A DNA stretch of 34,654 nt, taken from positions 1 through 34,654 of IMG/VR virus record IMGVR_UViG_3300036715_003756, one strand, 5' to 3'. The notes beneath the pieces are model-generated. The model searched no databases. It saw only the letters and a program-made list of their open reading frames with translations, and was not told the origin of the DNA. The translations under genes and the position numbers were made by a program. Origin of the DNA: a virus. Every line of letters starts with the position of its first letter. Within the stretch, counting starts at the first letter, position 1. Below are positions 21,830-34,133 of this stretch, piece by piece.

Positions 21830-22744
21830 GGGAATTTCCTTTACAGGTGAGGTTTCAGGGAGAGTTGGACTGACAAGCAGTCGGGAGAGCGAGGGAACCG
21901 GTGGGGTCAGCATGGAATTGATCTGCAGAATTGCGTCATCGAGCGTGCCCACGTCATCAGCCAGACCAGAAGCAACCGCGTCTGTGCCGAAGTACAGGGC
22001 CGCTTGGGTGTTTTTGACGGTGTTCACGCCCATGCCCCGGTGTTTGGCCACCGTCGTGGCGAACAGGTCATAGATGCGGTTGACCTCGCCCTGCAAGAAG
22101 CTGTGTGCTTCACCCGAAATGGGTGCGTGCGGGTTGAGATCGTTTTTGCGGTCACCGGCAAACACGGCGGTGTAGGCAATACCGTCTTGCTGGTCTTTGA
22201 CAGACTGGTCAACATGCATGGCAATCACGCCAATCGAGCCCACGCCACCGGTGCGCGAGACGATCAGGCGGCTGGCAGCACTGCCCAGCGCATAGGCAGC
22301 GGAGAACGCCATGTCGTTGGCAACCGCCCAGACCGGTTTGATGGCCGTGGCTGCGCGAATGCGGTCAGCCAGATCGAACACGCCAGAGGATTCGCCACCC
22401 GGTGAATCGATGTCGAGCAGGATGGCAGCGACATTCGGGTCGGCCAGCGCTGTATCCAGTGCCATGGCAATACCGGCGTAACTGGTCAAACCGGACTGGG
22501 CTTCAAGCCCCTGGGTGCGCCGCACCAGCGTGCCATAAATCGGGATCACAGCAATACCTGACTGACCAGCGCTGGTATCTGCCAGGGCAGCGTTTCGATC
22601 AGGCTGGACAAAGCCGGTCGGTGTCGACAAGTCGGGCAGTCCGACGCGCGAGCCGAGCACCGACAGGATGACATCGAGTTTTGGGCGATGGATGAGCAGC
22701 GGCGCACCAAACAGGCGTGCCGCCAAATGCGGTAACAGGTTCAT
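21464..22744 (-). CDS. Phage head maturation protease, S49 family (lambda gpC-like)
   Basis: This 426-residue protein is close to lambda gpC (439). The S49/SppA fold is clear: IAVIPIYGTLVRR (64-76), ILLDIDSPGGESSGV (108-122), the nucleophile Ser148 in AFSAAYALGSAASR, GGVGSIGVIAMHVDQ (166-180) and the general base Lys200 in AGDRKNDLNP. A C-terminal scaffold domain of about 120 residues follows (from residue 306) and can be made separately from an internal start. The protease degrades the scaffold during capsid maturation. The start is ATG 22744, ten bases after the portal gene. Confidence 0.94.
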   Translation of the reverse strand: MNLLPHLAARLFGAPLLIHRPKLDVILSVLGSRVGLPDLSTPTGFVQPDRNAALADTSAGQSGIAVIPIYGTLVRRTQGLEAQSGLTSYAGIAMALDTALADPNVAAILLDIDSPGGESSGVFDLADRIRAATAIKPVWAVANDMAFSAAYALGSAASRLIVSRTGGVGSIGVIAMHVDQSVKDQQDGIAYTAVFAGDRKNDLNPHAPISGEAHSFLQGEVNRIYDLFATTVAKHRGMGVNTVKNTQAALYFGTDAVASGLADDVGTLDDAILQINSMLTPPVPSLSRLLVSPTLPETSPVKEIPMTQSVQPTPVLAQTGINTTTSAATSATTSPADSAFAVSDAIEVAQSCTLAGRTDLIAGFLEAKVAPSQVRSQLLTAMAQQSTEIVSRIDPNAAHRQEMATTNPASPDNPLIAAVKARIGAR

Positions 22745-22753
22745 GAGAATCCT

Positions 22754-24286
22754 TTAAGCGTCAGCCGTGACCGGATCGCTGGTTGCGTTGTCAGCGGCTT
22801 GGGCCGCATGCTTGTTGGGCTCCGCACTGCCACCGTCTTTGGAGGTGCGTCTGGGGTCGGAGTCAAAAATCAGACCCAGGTCATCGGCGCGCTGGTTGTC
22901 AGCAGCGATTTCCCGATCAACGTCTTCTGCGTCATAGCCAAAAGCCGAAATCGCCTCAGACCGACTCATCAGCCCGGAGCGAATCGCAAGCAGCATGGCC
23001 TTGAACTCTTTCTCGGGGTCAACCCACTGCCAGCCCTGTGGAATCCACTTGGCTGCGAGGTATTGCCGCCGTTTTGCATTGCCGCCCCGGGCAAAGCCTG
23101 GAGCCTGCAATGCGCCGCTGAGCACGGCCTGCTTCATCCATGCAGCCCACACCGGGCGACACATCTGATGCACCAGCACGCCGTGCTGCACCATCTCGCA
23201 ACGTCGCCTGAATTCCAGCATTCCGGCGCGAATGCTGGAATAGTTCACGCCAGAGAGGTCGCCAGTCAGTTGCTCGTAGGTGATACCAATGGCCGCTGCC
23301 ACTGCCCGAAACTGGGCGCGCAGGAATTCGCCATAGGAGCCGCCCACATCGGCCGGGTCAGAGAATTTGATGTCTTCTCCGGGCTCCAGAATTTGCATGG
23401 TGCCGGGCTCCAAACCAGCCAGCGATACACCGTTGCCATCGGGCAGACCTTCGCCCAGCAGGTTGTCCTCCACGCTTTGGCGGGTGACAAACCCCGCGAA
23501 CATGGCAGCGGTCTTCTTGCGCACCAGTTCTGCGTCGTCGTACTGATCGAGTTCATTGAGTTTGACCAGTGCGCGTGAAAGCCACGGCTCACCGCGAATC
23601 TGCCCCGGGCGGAGCACCTTATATAGGTGGATGATTTCAGCCGCTTCAATGCGCACTGTCTCCAGACCACCTTGGCCGGACATGGGTGCCAGCCTGCCAT
23701 CCTCGGGGTGGGAACGGTACAAGTGGTACGCGACGCGCCTGCCAACGCCATCGAATTCGATGCCCGAACGAACCACATTGCCAGAATCGAGATCGATGTT
23801 GAGATTCAGCGGCAGGTGCTCTGGCTCAATCAGCTGGAGTTGCAGCGGCACACTCAGCCCATCTTCGGGTCGGCGCGGCCGCAGCCGGATCAGGCATTCA
23901 CCGCCCTCCAGCATGGCTCGACAGGCCAAGGCTTGCAAACCATAGAAGTCAGTTTGGCCTGCCGCATCGGCTTCCTCCACCCAGTCACGCCACAGCGTCT
24001 GCACTGCCGCCTTGAATGCGTCGTCACCGGCCAGACTTTGCGGCTTGATGCCGGTGCCGACCGCATTGGCCACAAAGGCTTCGATGCCGGACTGCGCCCA
24101 GGCGTTGCGACGCACCAGATCGCGGCTTTTGGTGCGCAGTTCGGAATTTGTGGCAAGCAGCGCCGACACAGCACCAGGGTTGCCGGGCATCCAGGCTTGT
24201 GCGCGTCTGCCACGGCCAGCGGCTTCATGGACGGGTCCCTGACCAATCTGGCCAAACAGGCTGCCAATTTTTGTGTACCAAGCCAT
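22754..24286 (-). CDS. Portal protein (lambda gpB family)
   Basis: I start this gene at ATG 24286-24284 (510 residues, MAWYTKIGSLFGQIGQ...), because it overlaps the stop of the gpW-like gene (TGATG). A longer start at 24337 would run through that gene. The protein matches lambda-type portals: RTKSRDLVRRNAWAQSGIEA, VANAVGTGIKPQS, CRAMLEGGECLIRLRPR, HLYKVLRPGQIRGEPWLSRA, the clip-like QYDDAELVRKKTAAMFAGFV, and ITYEQLTGDLSGVNYSSIRA. It should form the dodecameric ring at one capsid vertex through which DNA is packaged. An Asp-, Ala-rich tail closes the protein. A ten-base gap separates it from the protease gene. Confidence 0.95.
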   Translation of the reverse strand: MAWYTKIGSLFGQIGQGPVHEAAGRGRRAQAWMPGNPGAVSALLATNSELRTKSRDLVRRNAWAQSGIEAFVANAVGTGIKPQSLAGDDAFKAAVQTLWRDWVEEADAAGQTDFYGLQALACRAMLEGGECLIRLRPRRPEDGLSVPLQLQLIEPEHLPLNLNIDLDSGNVVRSGIEFDGVGRRVAYHLYRSHPEDGRLAPMSGQGGLETVRIEAAEIIHLYKVLRPGQIRGEPWLSRALVKLNELDQYDDAELVRKKTAAMFAGFVTRQSVEDNLLGEGLPDGNGVSLAGLEPGTMQILEPGEDIKFSDPADVGGSYGEFLRAQFRAVAAAIGITYEQLTGDLSGVNYSSIRAGMLEFRRRCEMVQHGVLVHQMCRPVWAAWMKQAVLSGALQAPGFARGGNAKRRQYLAAKWIPQGWQWVDPEKEFKAMLLAIRSGLMSRSEAISAFGYDAEDVDREIAADNQRADDLGLIFDSDPRRTSKDGGSAEPNKHAAQAADNATSDPVTADA

Positions 24287-24507
24287 CAGAAGCCTTTGGT
24301 GGTGGTCATGCGAATCTGACGCGGTGCGCCGGGCCACATGCCAGTTGATGCGGCTTGCTCAGACAGACCTCGCTTGACCTCGCGAATAGCGAGCCTGAGT
24401 TCGTCAACCGATCGGTATTCGACCGTCTTATCACCGAAGGAAACACGACGCTCCCCTTGGGTGAGTGCCGTCTGCAAGGCTTCGAGTTGGGTTTGTGAGA
24501 AGGACAT
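24286..24507 (-). CDS. Head-tail joining protein (lambda gpW family)
   Basis: This 73-residue protein (lambda gpW has 68) has the expected helix-beta hairpin-helix plan: QTQLEALQTALTQGERRVSF, then DKTVEYRSVDELRLAIREVK. Its stop (24288-24286) overlaps the portal start by one base, as expected for neighbours W and B. gpW plugs the portal after packaging and provides the tail-binding surface. Here it follows two tail-fibre-like genes rather than the large terminase gene directly. Confidence 0.88.
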   Translation of the reverse strand: MSFSQTQLEALQTALTQGERRVSFGDKTVEYRSVDELRLAIREVKRGLSEQAASTGMWPGAPRQIRMTTTKGF

Positions 24508-24530
24508 GGTGTTTGTTTTCTATTTGGGCA

Positions 24531-24935
24531 TCAGCGCCAGACGGTCAGGTTCATCTCGGTGGTGTCGGCGAGAGTCCCGTTTGAGGTGGTGCAGATGACC
24601 TCCACAAACTGGGTGGTCTTGACTTCTGCTGTGGCGCGTGCGCCAGCGTGTTTCATGGCCGATTGGTTGCCCGCATTGCGGGCGAACGCCTGCCAGCAGT
24701 AATTGGCATCTGGCATGGGGCTCAAAAACGCCACCCGGAATTTGCCAGTGGTTGTGCGGGTGACGCTATGAACATTGAACCCAGCCCGAACCACCACCGA
24801 GGCTTTGCTGCCAGTTCCAATCACGCCGAAGCACACCCAGGCTTTTGCAACCCCGGGATGATCTGCGGTGATGCGGGTCTTGAGTTCAAGAGCCAGGCGC
24901 TGCGCCAATTCGGTGATGTGTTGGGCCAGGTTCAT
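24531..24935 (-). CDS. Putative tail-fibre-like or receptor-binding protein
   Basis: This 134-residue protein (MNLAQHITELAQRLALELKT) has an N-terminal helix and then a beta-rich part with FNVHSVTRTTTGKFRVAFLS, PMPDANYCWQAFARN and KTTQFVEVICTTSNGTLADT. A tail-fibre tip-like pattern, (F/Y)NV.SVTR.G.G...F...MPD.NY, is often seen at the C-termini of phage fibre proteins. It lies between the fibre-like stalk gene and gpW, an unusual place for a fibre part. It is separated from its upstream partner by six bases. A receptor-binding role is inference. Confidence 0.6.
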   Translation of the reverse strand: MNLAQHITELAQRLALELKTRITADHPGVAKAWVCFGVIGTGSKASVVVRAGFNVHSVTRTTTGKFRVAFLSPMPDANYCWQAFARNAGNQSAMKHAGARATAEVKTTQFVEVICTTSNGTLADTTEMNLTVWR

Positions 24936-24941
24936 GAACGA

Positions 24942-25448
24942 TCAAGCCAGCAGCGCAGCTTCAAATGCCGCCACAAAATCGGTATCCGCATTCCCGATCT
25001 CCAGCACAGAGACCGCACCGATGTTCTGGCGGGCTTGTTCCTGCTCAGGTGCAGTCAGTGCCTGCACCGCATCAAAGCGCACTCGCTTGTCAACGGCTGC
25101 AAGCAAGGCAGCAATGCCGGTTTGGTCATTTAGCAGGGCATCCTGCAATTCTTTGAGCGTGTCAAACGCCGCATCGGCCCCACCGAGCAAGTCAGCCTTG
25201 AGGGCATCGAGCAAGGTGGTGATCTTGGAAGCCGAGAACGTGGTGGCCGTGCCAGCCGCGTTGGCATCATCAATGATGGTGACGCCAGCTAGAGTGGAAA
25301 TCTGGCTGCGCAGCTCATTGATGGAACTGACCAGGTTGGTTTTGTCCATGGTCGAGAGATTGGCCAGCGTGCCGACCTGACCGTAGATGGTTTTGAACTC
25401 GGCGGCAAGGCGTAGAACCAGGGATTCAAGGCGTGTTTGCAAACTCAT
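24942..25448 (-). CDS. Putative tail-fibre/stalk-like protein
   Basis: This 168-residue protein begins with a helix (SLQTRLESLVLRLAAEFKTI), then LSTMDKTNLVSSINELRSQI, and a stretch AAFDTLKELQDALLNDQTGI then AALLAAVDKRVRFD. The later part (QALTAPEQEQARQNIGA) is a common motif of phage tail-fibre proteins. Heptad-like spacing of Leu/Ile in the first half suggests a coiled-coil trimer. It follows a strong terminator after the large terminase gene, so its expression may depend on read-through or on a promoter I cannot identify. An accessory role in adsorption is likely but unproven. Confidence 0.6.
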   Translation of the reverse strand: MSLQTRLESLVLRLAAEFKTIYGQVGTLANLSTMDKTNLVSSINELRSQISTLAGVTIIDDANAAGTATTFSASKITTLLDALKADLLGGADAAFDTLKELQDALLNDQTGIAALLAAVDKRVRFDAVQALTAPEQEQARQNIGAVSVLEIGNADTDFVAAFEAALLA

Positions 25449-25472
25449 GGGGAAAACTCCAAAAAAGGCAAT

Positions 25473-25492
25473 AAAAAAGGCACCGAAGTGCC
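25473..25492 (-). terminator. Rho-independent terminator after the large terminase gene (minus strand)
   Basis: On the minus strand a GGCAC stem, a TTCG tetraloop and a GTGCC stem are followed by six T (complement of the A run at 25473-25478). This is a textbook intrinsic terminator, placed between the large terminase gene and the two tail-fibre-like genes. Confidence 0.8.
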
Positions 25493-25501
25493 GTCAGGGA
25501 T

Positions 25502-25519
25502 GGAGCGCCAAAACGCTCC
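25502..25519 (-). terminator. Second hairpin just downstream of the large terminase gene
   Basis: GGAGCG (25502-25507) and CGCTCC (25514-25519) form a six-base stem with the loop CCAAAA. No T run follows directly on the minus strand. It may assist the stronger terminator 10-30 bases further along, or protect the 3' end of the transcript. Confidence 0.45.
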
Positions 25520-25550
25520 GGTTAAACAGTCGGCCTATGCGCCACAGCCC

Positions 25551-27593
25551 CTAGCGTTTAAGCCAGGGACTGCGGATCACGCGGCGACTGAATTTGGGCT
25601 GTCCAGAAGCACTGATGCCAGCGCGACCTGCATCAGTCGGGCTGGCATCAATGGCATCTGTGGACAAATTTGATGAAGTGACATTCACCTCCGGGTCGGG
25701 TGGCCGCGCCAGCCCGAGTTGTTTTTCCAATTCGCGCCAGTGGCGCTCCTCAAAGCGGTCCAGACCGACACTCGATGCAGCAGCCCGGGCGTACACATAG
25801 CAGTCCAAGGCCTCGTTTCTCTCACGCATCTTTTGCCACTCACGGTGGGCAAAGCCGTTTCTGTCGTGCCGCGTGATCAAACTCTCGGCGCACAACTGCT
25901 GCACGTATTCCGCGTCCACCTTGGGCAGATGCACAAATCCAGCTGGGTAAAGTGGTGTGCTGCCGTCCGAGCCAACATCAGCCGCTTTGCGCAGGTTGTT
26001 GTAGAACTCCATCTTGGCCATGCCCACCGCAACTGAATACAGCTTGATGCCTCGGCGCAGCTTCTTGCCACCTTGGGTCACATCCACCGCAGTGGGCGTA
26101 CCAATCAACGCGGCACCGCCCATTGCGCCACTACGCACCCCTTTGACGGGCATGAGTCGTGGGTCATGGCAGCTGCGGGCGAACGCATAGGTTTCCTGGG
26201 TGGCAAAGCCGGTGTCCAGCGCCAGCCTGGTCAAAGGTATCAACACGCCACTGGCGTGCGTCCAGCGCTCGGCCAGCAACTCTGACAAACGTTTCCAGAC
26301 GGCATCGCGGGCGGTATCTCCCATCAGCACGCGGTGCTCGACCAGCCAGGACTCCTTACCGCGACCAAATGCCCAGATCGACACCTCGATCCGGTCTTTC
26401 TGTACGTCGGCACCGGCCACCAGCAGCAAGCCGCCCAGGGCAACGCTGCCGACTCGGTAATCTTCGCGGCGCTCAATCAGGCGCTGCCAGTCCGGTGCTT
26501 CGCCTTCTTCGAGCCAGGTCTCGCCCAGTTCGGTGTTTTTGAAGGTCTTGATCGCAGCAGCGGAACCGGACTCCTTGCTGACCGCGCTCTCCCAGGCGGC
26601 AGCCACATCGCGCCAGCTACGCCAGCCCACAGGGCTGTACAAGGATGACAAGTGAAACCCTGCGGTTTTTTTGCGACCTTTGCTGCTCTTTGCAGACTCT
26701 TGCGCGATCATGCTGCGCCATTGGCCCAACTCCAGCATTCGCGTCTTGTGGTGTTCGGCAATGGGCTGTTCACAGGACTCGCACACATAGGCTGCGGTCT
26801 CAGGTTTGGCTTTTTCCCAACGCAGGTTCTCAAAGCGCAGCCACTGGCGGTGGTCGCAGTGTGGACAGGGCACAAAGTAGCGCCGCTGGTCACTTGCCTC
26901 GTATTCACGCTCAATGGCCGACACACCTGAGATGGTCGGGGTCGACACAATGAAAATTTTGCGCCGGGTGAAGGTGCGCGTGCGGGCTTCTGCCAGCGAA
27001 ATCGCATCACCTTCGCCTTCCACATCCAGTGGATACCCGTCGACCTCGTCCAGGAACAAATAGCGCACCGGCATGGAACGCAAGCCCACCGCGCTGTTGG
27101 CACCGGTCATCACCAACACGCCACCCCTGAACTCCTTAGCCAGAATGGTGTTTCCGGAGTCGCGTGATCTGGCAGGTGATATCAATTCACGCAGCGCAGC
27201 GGACTCCTCAATCAACGGGTCAATGCGCTGCTTGGAGTTGCGCTTGGCCATGTCCACCGTCGGCCAGACCGCCATCATGGGCCCGGGCGCATGGTGAATC
27301 ACGTAGCCAATCCAGTTCGACCCCATTTCAGTCGCACCCAGTTGCGCAGCCTTCATAAACACCACCCGTTCCACGGGCGATGATGGTGACAGGCAATCCA
27401 TGATCTCTTTCAGGTATGGCGTGCGGCTAGTGCGCCAGCGCCCGGGCTCAGCAGAAGCTTTGCTGGAGAGCATGCGGTGCTGATCTGACCACTCGGACAC
27501 CGACAGCAGTGGGTCTGGGGTAAGGCCGTCGCGCCACGCACGTTCAATTTCTGTTGCACCGTCGTAATGATCGGTATCGATTTGAGTGCTCAT
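25551..27593 (-). CDS. Large terminase subunit, GpA family (ATPase-nuclease)
   Basis: This 680-residue protein is a lambda gpA-type packaging motor (lambda gpA has 641). The Walker-A-like KAAQLGATE lies at 81-89, Walker B YLFLDEVDGY at 178-187, a Cys cluster VPCPHCDHRQW...CESCEQPI sits in the middle, and the nuclease domain includes LLLVAGADVQKDRIEVSIWA. It translocates DNA into the procapsid and cuts at cos-type or similar sites. The gene overlaps the small terminase start region by one base. GpA-type terminases usually make cohesive ends, so a cos site is expected, but I could not identify one. Confidence 0.95.
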   Translation of the reverse strand: MSTQIDTDHYDGATEIERAWRDGLTPDPLLSVSEWSDQHRMLSSKASAEPGRWRTSRTPYLKEIMDCLSPSSPVERVVFMKAAQLGATEMGSNWIGYVIHHAPGPMMAVWPTVDMAKRNSKQRIDPLIEESAALRELISPARSRDSGNTILAKEFRGGVLVMTGANSAVGLRSMPVRYLFLDEVDGYPLDVEGEGDAISLAEARTRTFTRRKIFIVSTPTISGVSAIEREYEASDQRRYFVPCPHCDHRQWLRFENLRWEKAKPETAAYVCESCEQPIAEHHKTRMLELGQWRSMIAQESAKSSKGRKKTAGFHLSSLYSPVGWRSWRDVAAAWESAVSKESGSAAAIKTFKNTELGETWLEEGEAPDWQRLIERREDYRVGSVALGGLLLVAGADVQKDRIEVSIWAFGRGKESWLVEHRVLMGDTARDAVWKRLSELLAERWTHASGVLIPLTRLALDTGFATQETYAFARSCHDPRLMPVKGVRSGAMGGAALIGTPTAVDVTQGGKKLRRGIKLYSVAVGMAKMEFYNNLRKAADVGSDGSTPLYPAGFVHLPKVDAEYVQQLCAESLITRHDRNGFAHREWQKMRERNEALDCYVYARAAASSVGLDRFEERHWRELEKQLGLARPPDPEVNVTSSNLSTDAIDASPTDAGRAGISASGQPKFSRRVIRSPWLKR

Positions 27594-31163: not shown

Positions 31164-31375
31164 CGCACTCGCCGGGCCTCAAACGCCCGGCGCAGGAGGT
31201 AGCTTCGCACAAGCGACACACCCGTAAAGATTAATCCGATCATCAGGTTCTGCGACAAGGTCGCATGCAACCCAAACAGCGGAAACACCAAATACTGAGT
31301 GGCCACCGCCACGATATAGCCCACCAGCACGTTGGCCACCGACTCCACCAGAGACATCCAGCGTGACTGCATCAC
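31109..31375 (-). CDS. DUF7220-like small membrane protein
   Basis: This is an 88-residue protein, MQSRWMSLVESVANVLVGYI then VAVATQYLVFPLFG, with a second hydrophobic part QNLMIGLIFTGVSLVRSYLL followed by RRAFEARR. Two membrane helices and a basic end match the DUF7220 phage family (unknown function), in which the motif S..MSLVE...N...GY and SLVRSY.LRR is typical. It overlaps the methyltransferase stop/start by four bases (ATGA, 31372-31375), so it is the last gene of that transcript. Its last about 18 residues overlap the convergent gene on the + strand. Confidence 0.72.
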   Translation of the reverse strand: MMQSRWMSLVESVANVLVGYIVAVATQYLVFPLFGLHATLSQNLMIGLIFTGVSLVRSYLLRRAFEARRVRQAKSSSSMAACTTNPVK

Positions 31376-32667
31376 GATTGGCCCTGATCTTCCTGGCCAT
31401 CTTCGCCAGTGTCACCAATGACAACTCCGGCCAAATCATTGAAGCCAATGCCATCGCACTCGCGAGTGGCAAGTTTTCCGGTCCAGTCCTGCCAGCGCCG
31501 GACAATCACGTCGACATACTTCGGATCGAGTTCCATCAGGCGCGCCGTGCGTCCTGACTTTTCTGCGGCGACCAGGGTCGTGCCGGAGCCGCCAAAGGGG
31601 TCAAGCACGACGTCACCGGGTTTGCTGGAGTTGCGAATGGCGCGCTCCACCAGTTCGACTGGCTTCATGGTCGGGTGCAAATCATTCTTGTGGGGCTTTT
31701 TGATCTGCCAGACATCACTCTGGTCACGGTCGCCGCACCAGTGGTGCTTGCCACCCTCGGGCCAGCCGTACAGAATCGGTTCGTACTGGCGCTGGTAGTC
31801 TGAGCGACCCATGGTGAAGGTATTCTTCGCCCAGATGATGAAGGTCGACCACTTGCCACCGGCCTCGCGAAACGCCGCTTGCAGGACATCAAGTTCACTG
31901 GACGACATGGCCACGTACACCGCACCGGTGCAGTTGGCCATGATGGGTGTCAGTGCGGCCAACAGGAAGTCGTAAAAGCCGTCGCCCAGGTTGTCGTTGA
32001 GGATGGCCCGGTCTTTGCCACGCATCTTGTCCTTGGCGCTGTTGGCATAGTTGACGTTGTACGGCGGGTCGGTGACCGTCATGTCCACGTCCGTTCCTTG
32101 CAGCAACAGCTCGTAACTTTTGGCATCGGTGGCATCGCCACACAGCACACGGTGGTCACCGAGCAGCCAAACGTCGCCAGGGCGCGAGATAACTGCATCT
32201 TGCGACTCGAGTACCTCATCGTCGCCGGTTTGGCCTGTGTCGCCTTCGTCGCCCTCGAACAGGTCGGCCAGTGCGTCGACATCAAAGCCGGTGAGCGACA
32301 AGTCGAAGTCGTCATCGCGCAGGGCATCGAGTTCCACCCGCAGCATCGCATCGTCCCAGCCTGCGTTTTCAGCAATGCGGTTGTCCGCAATGATCAACGC
32401 GCGGCGCTGGGTGGGCGTCAGATGGTCAAGCACCACCACCGGTACGACTTCCAGACCGAGCTTTTGCGCCGCAGTCAATCTGCCGTGGCCCGCCACGATG
32501 ATGCCGTCACTGCCAGCCAAAATGGGGTTGGTAAAGCCAAACTCCACGATGGACGCAGCGATTTGCGCCACTTGTTCTTCCGAATGGGTGCGGGCATTTC
32601 TGGCGTAGGGCAGCAGTTTGCCGGTTGGCCACTGCTCGATTTTGTTGGCCAGCCAGGATGCGGTCAT
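31372..32667 (-). CDS. ParB-domain/DNA methyltransferase fusion, DPPY type (N6-adenine or N4-cytosine)
   Basis: This is a 431-residue protein. Residues about 15-95 form a ParB-like N-terminal domain (ARNARTHSEEQVAQIAASI, VAGHGRLTAAQKLG with GHGR at 60-63). A linker rich in Asp/Glu/Gly follows. The methyltransferase domain carries motif IV DPPY at 200-203 and the SAM-binding FGGSGTT at 358-364; motif IV before motif I is the beta-class order. LHPTMKPVELVERAIRNSSK is typical of phage enzymes. DPPY points to N6-adenine methylation, though N4-cytosine is possible. Such ParB-MTases are common in phages and modify DNA. There is no restriction enzyme nearby. The ATGA overlap links it to the upstream paralogue. 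Confidence 0.92.
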   Translation of the reverse strand: MTASWLANKIEQWPTGKLLPYARNARTHSEEQVAQIAASIVEFGFTNPILAGSDGIIVAGHGRLTAAQKLGLEVVPVVVLDHLTPTQRRALIIADNRIAENAGWDDAMLRVELDALRDDDFDLSLTGFDVDALADLFEGDEGDTGQTGDDEVLESQDAVISRPGDVWLLGDHRVLCGDATDAKSYELLLQGTDVDMTVTDPPYNVNYANSAKDKMRGKDRAILNDNLGDGFYDFLLAALTPIMANCTGAVYVAMSSSELDVLQAAFREAGGKWSTFIIWAKNTFTMGRSDYQRQYEPILYGWPEGGKHHWCGDRDQSDVWQIKKPHKNDLHPTMKPVELVERAIRNSSKPGDVVLDPFGGSGTTLVAAEKSGRTARLMELDPKYVDVIVRRWQDWTGKLATRECDGIGFNDLAGVVIGDTGEDGQEDQGQS

Positions 32668-34133
32668 GGATTTACCTCTGCGGATTCAATTGATGGGGTT
32701 GCTGGCGCGTGTCGCTCTGCGGCGACTGCCTTGAAGGTCTGGCCGGTCGCTGCGAGCGACACCGGCACATCGGGAAAGTTTTGCTGGAATCGAATGACGG
32801 CCACGTCCACGTACTGCGGCGCGATCTCCACCAGTCGGCACTGGCGACCACTGCGCTGTGCGGCCAGCATGGTTGTGCCGCTGCCGCAAAAGGGCTCGAA
32901 CACAATGTCACCGGCGTCTGAATACGCTTCCAGAACAAACTGGGGCAACGCCACTGGGAACACGGCCGGGTGGTCAATGTCCTGACCGATCTTGCCCTTG
33001 TGGCGCATGATGCGAATCACCGAGTCAGCGATTTTGGTGTCTTGTGTGAGCGTGCCGACATGGTTCCACGAGGTTTTGCTGCCATCTTTGTTGCGCATGC
33101 CACCGGCGCTGGTGCCGTCACCGCGCAGATGAGTGTCACGCCCAGCGTAGATGCAGGGCACGTTTTTGTTGGGTCTGCGCACCTCGGAGTCCTTGCGATT
33201 GAAATGAAACACGAACTCAAACGCTGGCGCAAAGCGACCGCTCCAGTCACCCGGTAGGCCCGGGCCCTGGTCCCAAACGTACCAGCCAAAGCGCCGCCAC
33301 CCCTGCTGGCGCATCCAGGACAGCCAGCCATCCCAGTACGGCATGACTTCCTGCTCGCGGTGGATCAGCCCCAGGTTGACCAGCACTTGACCGGTGGCAG
33401 CCATGGGCAGGTTCGCGAAGACCGAACGCATCAGCGCGTCCCAATCAACAATCGTGTCGGTGTAGTCGCGCTGGGTACCGTAGGGCGGCGAGGTGAAACA
33501 CATCGCAGCCCTTTCAGATTGCATCAGGGCGGCGACCACCGCTGAGTCACCGGCATCGCCACAGATCAGACGGTGCGCACCAAGCAGCCAGACATCACCG
33601 GTTCGGGATACCGGGTTGACCGGTGCGTCTGGTACCTCGTCACCAGCGTCTGGGGCATCGTCGGATTCGTCATCGCCTGCCGGGTTGTCGCCGGTCTCGC
33701 CATCAATGTGCTCGGACATCATGGCTTCGATCTCAGCATCCTCAAAGCCGGTCAGGGCCAGGTCGTAACCGGACTCACACAGCTCGGTCAGTTCAAGGGC
33801 CAGCATCTCTTCGTCCCACCCGGCATCAAGTGACAGGCGGTTGTCGGCGATCACGTAGGCGCGCTTCTGGGTGGGCGACAGGTGCCCCAGTTCAATGACC
33901 GGAACTTCTGTCAGCCCCAACTTGCGCGCAGCCGCCAGACGTCCGTGCCCGGCGATCACGCCGCTGACACCATCAACCAGCACCGGATTTGTCCAGCCAA
34001 ACTCGGCGATGCTGGCGGCAATCTTGGCCACCTGTTCTTCGCTGTGGGTGCGAGGGTTGCGGGCGAACGGGATCAGCGCGTCAACCTTGCGGTACTCGAC
34101 GTTGAGAGGATTCAAGGGTTTCGAGCTTTCCAA
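32664..34133 (-). CDS. ParB-domain/DNA methyltransferase fusion, SPPY type (probably N4-cytosine)
   Basis: This is a 489-residue protein and a diverged paralogue of the next gene. The ParB-like part (ARNPRTHSEEQVAKIAASI, IAGHGRLAAARKLGL with GHGR at 62-65) is followed by an acidic linker (about 145-172). The catalytic motif is TSPPYG (214-219), and the SAM-binding motif FCGSGTT is at 415-421. SPPY is typical of N4-cytosine methyltransferases, but the target base cannot be proved from sequence. HPAVFPVALPQFVLEAYSDA is a normal element of phage enzymes. The apparent start is TTG 34133; no ATG lies between it and an upstream in-frame stop, so the exact start is uncertain. Confidence 0.9.
   Translation of the reverse strand: MESSKPLNPLNVEYRKVDALIPFARNPRTHSEEQVAKIAASIAEFGWTNPVLVDGVSGVIAGHGRLAAARKLGLTEVPVIELGHLSPTQKRAYVIADNRLSLDAGWDEEMLALELTELCESGYDLALTGFEDAEIEAMMSEHIDGETGDNPAGDDESDDAPDAGDEVPDAPVNPVSRTGDVWLLGAHRLICGDAGDSAVVAALMQSERAAMCFTSPPYGTQRDYTDTIVDWDALMRSVFANLPMAATGQVLVNLGLIHREQEVMPYWDGWLSWMRQQGWRRFGWYVWDQGPGLPGDWSGRFAPAFEFVFHFNRKDSEVRRPNKNVPCIYAGRDTHLRGDGTSAGGMRNKDGSKTSWNHVGTLTQDTKIADSVIRIMRHKGKIGQDIDHPAVFPVALPQFVLEAYSDAGDIVFEPFCGSGTTMLAAQRSGRQCRLVEIAPQYVDVAVIRFQQNFPDVPVSLAATGQTFKAVAAERHAPATPSIESAEVNP

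Follow-up and report, generated by a model that had tools for sequence, protein, structure and literature searches.

The window, by which we mean the whole 34,654-base stretch of viral DNA that was analysed, carries the minus-strand gene order terS, terL, P168, P134, gpW, portal, as assigned from sequence, open reading frames (ORFs), and family matches. A preliminary description had placed two fibre-type genes in the interval from terL to gpW, with a UUCG-loop terminator and its six U ahead of them. The sequence, ORFs, and PHROG matches confirmed this arrangement. The slot and its borders contain the following features:

28165-27593, minus strand: terS (ORF and family match)
25551..27593, minus strand: terL of the lambda gpA type, which bounds the slot upstream (Pfam GpA_ATPase/GpA_nuclease)
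25502..25519, minus strand: second leader hairpin with a 7-bp stem and no U run (fold of the leader)
25479..25492, minus strand: terminator-like hairpin GGCAC-UUCG-GUGCC followed by UUUUUU, between terL and P168
24942..25448, minus strand: P168 (phrog_4757), putative fibre stalk protein of 168 aa (ORF, PHROG, alignment of 35 homologues)
25386..25448, minus strand: N-terminal helix motif of P168, residues 1-21, MSLQTRLESLVLRLAAEFKTI (alignment of 35 homologues)
24951..24995, minus strand: C-terminal tag of P168, residues 152-166, GNADTDFVAAFEAAL (tag profile)
24936..24944, minus strand: P168/P134 junction, with the P168 stop TGA, 6 bases, and the P134 ATG in the same frame
24531..24935, minus strand: P134 (phrog_11355), putative fibre tip protein of 134 aa (PHROG, AlphaFold2)
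24873..24935, minus strand: N-terminal helix motif of P134, residues 1-21 (profile score, AlphaFold2)
24699..24716, minus strand: MPDANY motif of the knob, P134 residues 74-79 (sequence)
24534..24845, minus strand: predicted beta-sandwich knob, P134 residues 31-134 (structure comparison)
24286..24507, minus strand: gpW-like head-tail adaptor, which bounds the slot downstream (phrog_2545, head-tail adaptor Ad1, E 1e-23)
24337-22754, minus strand: portal (ORF and family match)

In phage lambda, W directly follows terL. The same succession was checked in three isolates (RcBaka, Wolbachia phage WO, and AcaML1), which are among the isolated phages nearest by terL in 803 matching records and lack the pair. 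In AcaML1, the small gene that separates terL from portal carries a 'hypothetical' label only. The GC3 values of P168 (0.64) and P134 (0.71) are similar to those of terL (0.69), portal (0.67), and capsid (0.72), so the two genes bear no mark of recent arrival.

P168 matched phrog_4757, a family whose function is not known, with an E value of 6e-59 (residues 1-166 of 168 on profile positions 9-184 of 359). Neither P168 nor P134 had a Pfam match above cut-off. Across 35 aligned homologues, the N-terminal residues M1, S2, L3, L10, R13, and E17 were conserved at 90% or more, and the resulting helix motif, MSLxxRLxxLxxRxxxExK, opens both P168 and P134. The C-terminal tag follows the pattern GNxxTDFVxxFExAL and was limited to P168 within the window (score 39.6, with the next best ORF end at -2.0). 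Stalk length differs among phages through inserted repeats, with both ends kept.

The coiled-coil stalk that had been proposed for P168 was borne out in part only. AlphaFold2 modelling of a read-through P168-P134 fusion predicted P168 to be helical, at low confidence (pLDDT mostly 50-70), as would be expected if the protein folds only as a trimer. Sequence searches of the PDB with P168 alone or P134 alone returned nothing up to an E value of 1. The P168 alignment gave six weak PDB matches, led by Phi92 gp145 (E 0.0015) and followed by two phage fibre chains and three viral glycoprotein constructs, while the P134 alignment gave a single, unrelated match. Comparison of the fusion model with predicted viral structures yielded 68 matches at E <= 0.001, several named tail fibre or tail spike and most uninformative. 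Foldseek searches of the PDB with the fusion model and with P134 gave no match at E < 0.001.

P134 matched phrog_11355, 'tail fiber protein', over residues 1-134 (E 4e-45). Using a profile built from P168-family N-termini only, the P134 helix had the second-best score in the window, 16.5, compared with 5.0 for the match ranking after it, which lies on the other strand. The AlphaFold2 model (mean pLDDT 84) comprises a helix at residues 3-21 (pLDDT 91-93 over residues 1-20) and a beta-sandwich with a weak loop at residues 90-103. The predicted knob resembled the C-terminal part of the phiAB6 tailspike (Z 8.2, 91 aligned residues, 3.0 A), the receptor-binding domain of the Pam1 tailspike (Z 7.3), AP22 gp53 (Z 5.8), the lectins known as Helix agglutinins (Z 4.6), and R-pyocin fibre tips (Z 4.4); a Z below about 8 indicates possibly a common arrangement, and the best Foldseek E value was 0.067. 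Identity to phiAB6, Pam1, the Helix lectins, and the R-type pyocin tips, whose modelled likeness spans Z 4.4-8.2, was 7-12%. The MPDANY motif noted earlier is present at residues 74-79. Its Y79 is invariant in 33 P134 homologues, and D76 is conserved at 90% or more. With a helix followed by a beta-sandwich akin to tailspike C-terminal and lectin domains, the modelled P134 looks like a fibre tip.

The distribution of the pair was assessed from both of its neighbours. An alignment search of genome contigs gave 190 P168 relatives, the best 80 of which were retained; they came from Rhodoferax (up to 94% identity), Undibacterium and other Betaproteobacteria, Pseudomonas, Lysobacterales, and others. 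Within these best 80 of 190, terL lies directly upstream of P168 in 79 loci (the remaining one is cut by a contig edge), W and portal matches lie downstream in all 80, P134 directly follows P168 in 78, and the pair occurs together in 80. The two other arrangements are found in L211 and L222 (names of this form denote individual loci). L211 (1009-2600), from a Pseudomonadota genome, has a 261-aa ORF between stalk and tip, and its tip helix is kept. In L222 (Thermomonas sp. S9), P168 and P134 are fused in one gene. This fusion was rejected as proof of contact because the join falls at a G-run that differs from the relative L218 and the name of the contig points to a long-read assembly; it may be an assembly error. 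Among the viral loci with matches (L008-L129), 112 of 121 hold both genes, several of these loci being pieces of the same contig.

The best 80 of 593 viral terL relatives provided the second view. P168 was present in 61 of these near-terL loci, with P134 in view in 57; two of the four exceptions were cut by the locus edge and two contained another cassette. The pair was absent from 19 of the 80, and W starts 11-30 nt past the terL match in 18 of these 19. Because the pair is kept at terL where present and missing in 19 of 80 near-terL loci, it is an accessory module, as had been proposed, yet one fixed in place in the head operon. Three loci carry a different fibre-like cassette in the terL-W slot, with no P168 match in L270 and partial matches in L278 and L302. 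It encodes a 101-120 aa protein with the helix and without the tag, then a 263-aa protein and a further protein:

L270 5963-7695: alternative slot cassette
L302 4054-5820: alternative slot cassette
L278 5177-6721: alternative slot cassette

Several lines of analysis addressed the hairpin upstream of P168. The 72-nt leader was more stable than dinucleotide shuffles (z -2.55), with 4 of 200 shuffles equally good. A scan of positions 22500-26500 found 5 terminator-like sites compared with 3.7 +/- 2.0 expected, and since this count falls within expectation, the scan alone does not single out the UUCG hairpin. Stem variants that still pair were found in near relatives (GGCAC/GTGCC, TGGCAC/GTGCCA, GAGCAC/GTGCTC, and GGGCACT/AGTGCCC) in a survey that took a 110-nt view and in which loci were not made unique. 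These compensated variants mark the hairpin as special, and it seems to be kept by selection in the nearest relatives. Among 56 distinct terL-P168 intergenic regions from viral contigs, a perfect stem with a T-run occurred in 16 and was lacking in 40. All 16 were among the 17 regions of at least 71 nt, and none was among the 39 regions of 52 nt or less. Outside this count, the 110-nt view also shows hairpin sites in L033, L151, L094, and L057.

The gene pair does not require the hairpin, as it occurs elsewhere without one. The preliminary description had argued from the terminator that the pair needs read-through, antitermination, or its own promoter. The hairpin itself stands, and the argument built on it is weak, because relatives with the same gene order mostly lack a hairpin in the gap (40 of 56). 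A promoter suggested near 25449-25470 was not borne out: hairpin and P168 ATG are separated by 30 nt in the window, and a consensus scan for promoters of the sigma-70 type found 0 sites in 22500-26500 compared with 1.1 expected. A promoter does not fit into this gap, so that either read-through or a promoter further upstream is needed.

The neighbours of P168 homologues in named phages revealed a recurrent pattern, in which the preceding gene ends like the stalk and the following gene begins like it. Profiles of the first 21 residues and of the 15-residue tag were built from the P168 family only. From 252 loci, we obtained 116 distinct stalks after dropping incomplete ORFs, low helix scores, and duplicates; 20 fall within the terL clade (two of them placed there by hand) and 96 outside it. 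As the stalk helix was a selection rule, its presence in the stalks is by selection. For the 96 stalks outside the terL clade, the upstream gene ended in a tag in 90 of 95 cases, compared with 2 of 78 for one gene further upstream and 80 of 2386 background ORF ends. The tag pattern is thus a loose one, matching 3% of the background, and one simple rule served to choose both the neighbours and their controls. The downstream gene started with a helix in 85 of 95 cases, compared with 0 of 85 for one gene further downstream. The pattern held when each 60% body-identity group contributed a single stalk, the upstream gene fitting in 37 of 40 cases and the downstream gene in 35 of 40. At least three of the 10 downstream misses and one of the 5 upstream misses look like wrong ORF picks, the others being weak or absent. 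The upstream miss at L143 is such a wrong pick, with an annotated neighbour that scores as tagged, and the upstream genes of L334 and L460 end in tag look-alikes.

Within the terL clade, the upstream gene was tagged in 0 of 20 loci and the downstream gene began with the helix in 14 of 20; the downstream misses include five wrong-frame picks, four of them scoring 23-32, and L312 scores 3. The window itself shows the chain pattern, with a stalk bearing an N-terminal helix and a C-terminal tag followed by a tip with an N-terminal helix. No tag-bearing anchor was found among its 27 proteins, the upstream neighbour of P168 being terL. A natural control is provided by the cassettes in L270, L302, and L278, where the proteins after the tagless first protein have no helix. 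This coincidence of a missing tag with helix-less next proteins is what a joint would look like.

Two side observations concern stalk neighbourhoods and labels. In Finch and Stormageddon, the stalk is preceded by two consecutive short genes that both end in a tag (L004 6714-6991, L143 3716-3996), as if two anchors shared or competed for one fibre. Stalk homologues in the Pseudomonas aeruginosa phage records OL622073, OL473897, OL343755, and OQ383211 are listed under 'terminase large subunit' genes, probably a misannotation.

Tags and helices fall into two dialects, which are largely matched within a chain. F-type tags (..F(E/N)xAL) pair with helices bearing R13 and E17, while Y-type tags (..DPLAYYILAKG in anchors, ..AYxxAK in stalks) pair with D17 and no R13. 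The upstream tag and the stalk tag shared a dialect in 86 of 88 chains, and the exceptions, L324 (YYLLERN) and L433 (YYILAST), look like pattern miscalls. Y stalks carried D17 in 71 of 71 cases and R13 in none, as did their tips (D17 66 of 66; R13 0). F stalks including the terL clade carried R13 and E17 in 37 of 41 cases each, and their tips in 29 of 32 each; without the terL clade, the values were 17 of 21 and 15 of 18. All of these counts are of sequences and not of independent events on a tree, as chains are co-inherited. By 60% groups, D17 was found in 19 of 19 Y stalks, and R13 together with E17 in 14 of 17 F stalks.

What these termini join is diverse. Beyond the helix, which stays, the tips (85 plus that of the window) formed 41 clusters among 86 at an E value of 1e-3 and ranged from 49 to 881 aa, and anchors minus the tag formed 28 clusters among 90. 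The window knob had one relative in the tip set, the L442 tip (33% identity over a 73-residue stretch; E 3e-9, from a small set). The L442 knob rides a Y-dialect helix in a Y-dialect chain and that of the window an F-dialect one; either knob or joint has apparently been exchanged, as though one knob had been fitted to a new helix. By eye only, the body of the L405 tip resembles a glycoside hydrolase, and other tips look repeat-rich. Ochrobactrum phage POA1180 and Rhizobium phage RHph_I36 matched inside the stalk only, with no helix or tag, and there the match lies among tail genes.

Our preferred reading, to which we assign a probability of roughly 0.7, is that P168 forms the stalk and P134 the receptor-binding tip of a single virion fibre made in two pieces, which docking of the tag onto the helix would hold together. 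It draws on features legible in the sequences themselves, namely gene order, helix and tag, adjacency, dialect matching, and the pattern of presence and absence. The fibre stalk and tip of the preliminary description thus gain support from PHROG, the predicted knob fold, and the chains in other phages. The C-terminal tag of P168 would dock onto the amphipathic N-terminal helix of P134, and the helix of P168 itself would clip the fibre to the virion. Many unrelated phages would use this code to build a three-part chain, from a short anchor that ends in the tag, a stalk that has both signals, and a tip that has the helix alone. As the anchor gene is missing in the lambda-type clade, the stalk helix there would have to hold another virion part. 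The assembled fibre may provide an initial, non-essential hold on the cell surface, probably via the lectin-like knob of the model. Physical docking, the trimer, the place on the virion, and the role in adsorption are what we infer from this. In the AlphaFold2 fusion model, tag and helix appear as helices with a pLDDT of only 52-68, and the model was set aside as docking evidence because this confidence is too low.

In our judgement, the head or neck is a fairly probable site for the window fibre, given the position of the pair, with terL on one side and gpW/portal on the other. The 'tail' in the tail fibre proposed earlier did not hold up as well as the 'fibre': the pair lies at terL, and not in a tail cluster, in the window and across the 80 clade genome loci (terL immediately precedes it in 79, and the remaining locus is cut by a contig edge). 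A known head function within a conserved head module had also been named as evidence against the proposal; the module is there, and no known head function comes with it. A true tail fibre that sits in the head operon by chance and is held by an adaptor is possible, though doubtful. PHROG places P134 in the category 'tail', in Stormageddon the gene that follows the stalk has a tail-protein annotation and phage tail repeats, and the partial stalk relatives in POA1180 and RHph_I36 are among tail genes. In Gordonia phage Tanis, a gene for an LtfC-like protein (Pfam, E 3e-20) lies upstream of the anchor, two genes before the stalk. It is a hint that points to the collar. In T5-like phages, LtfC fixes lateral tail fibres (PMC10713586), which in Tanis at least speaks against placement on the head. 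No Pfam match to an LtfC-like domain was found in the 15 window proteins scanned. Against a tail position stand not only the clade loci but also the CcrSC stalk, which follows capsid genes, and the stalks of CcrPW and Touem01, which lie directly and shortly before portal, respectively. The chain lies elsewhere in PMBT3, SM1, Gordonia phages, RHph_I42, and Pumpernickel.

Because P168 bears helix and tag of one dialect, it could conceivably dock onto itself. This would create an extendable head-to-tail filament, started at the virion and capped by P134, with separate dialects that let unrelated phages swap tips and stalks while the joint stays as it is; we consider it an outside chance. An improbable alternative to tag-helix docking is that helix and tag share a chaperone or another assembly factor as their binding partner and do not bind each other. 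Both signals are short and terminal, and one chaperone per phage could set the dialects of both, but a chaperone has no need for the usual pattern of a tag on all but the last gene and a helix on all but the first, nor does it explain the joint loss of tag and helix in L270, L302, and L278. It is very unlikely that P168 and P134 are packaging or head-assembly factors (decoration or scaffold) whose fibre look reflects a shared fold, for although their position in the head module is fixed and the phiM7 and phiN3 homologues are annotated as capsid-related, the phiM12 homologue is tied to the capsid only by a conserved-domain match (COG5511), the slot can hold other fibre-like genes, and W and portal occur without the pair in close relatives whose terL is about 80% identical (19 of 80).

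The proposed two-piece fibre has partial counterparts among described systems. The lateral tail fibre of T5/DT57C is attached via a separate small beta-sheet adaptor, the LtfC collar, which recalls the LtfC-like gene before the Tanis anchor; unlike the chains described here, no terminal tag/helix code appears in the accessible portion of that work (PMC10713586). The RcGTA head spikes, made of two proteins, the base Rcc01079 and the fibre Rcc01080, resemble what is proposed here in providing a head-borne fibre for first contact. In RcGTA, an N-terminal Ile/Leu-Gly peptide of the fibre sits in a pentameric jellyroll and keeps it in place (PMC7296036), whereas P168 starts with a helix motif. Head filaments of phiCbK and 7-7-1 likewise embody the idea of a capsid fibre for first adsorption (PMC3556154, PMC12796354). 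In the phiCbK-like phage CcrSC, a P168 relative lies between capsid genes and a region that matches the phiCbK filament candidate by gene order. phiCbK was rejected as a direct example, since positions 30000-70000 held no chain by profiles and no P168 by eye. The plus strand of 7-7-1 also gave no chain by profiles, its N-profile match of 10.9 lying inside the gp4 frame and not at a start.

The closest named counterpart is gene 8 of Gordonia phage Burley, a direct P168 homologue with helix and tag that, together with others, carries the record annotation 'head fiber protein'. It is preceded by a tagged gene and followed by a helix gene, and has a longer stalk and another tip than those of the window. 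Searches of open-licence papers found neither this phrase nor a tag-helix docking code in phage fibres, and no phiM12 proteomics. Proteomics of phage Lana, which lists five virion proteins (PMC7368026), was set aside, as Lana is not among the 40 of 125 stalk records listed. Fibres with adaptors and head fibres are thus already known, and the tag-helix code would be new as judged from the open-licence literature. If docking is real, one helix and one tag would explain interchangeable fibre parts across phages as distant as those of Rhodoferax, Pseudomonas, Caulobacter, Sinorhizobium, Gordonia, and Microbacterium. The same signals would provide a rule to spot fibre parts now labelled hypothetical protein, terminase, or capsid protein.

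Two further gene pairs were observed in the window. On the plus strand, positions 473-931 and 967-1917 are adjacent TIR-domain genes that match PADLOC ThsB-like and bSEFIR/TIR models, possible defence genes at the record edge. On the minus strand, the genes at positions 31372-32667 and 32664-34133 overlap, and each matches the Type II methyltransferase model PDLC03229; the gene at 32664-34133 has an additional weak ParB_N match below the Pfam cut-off.
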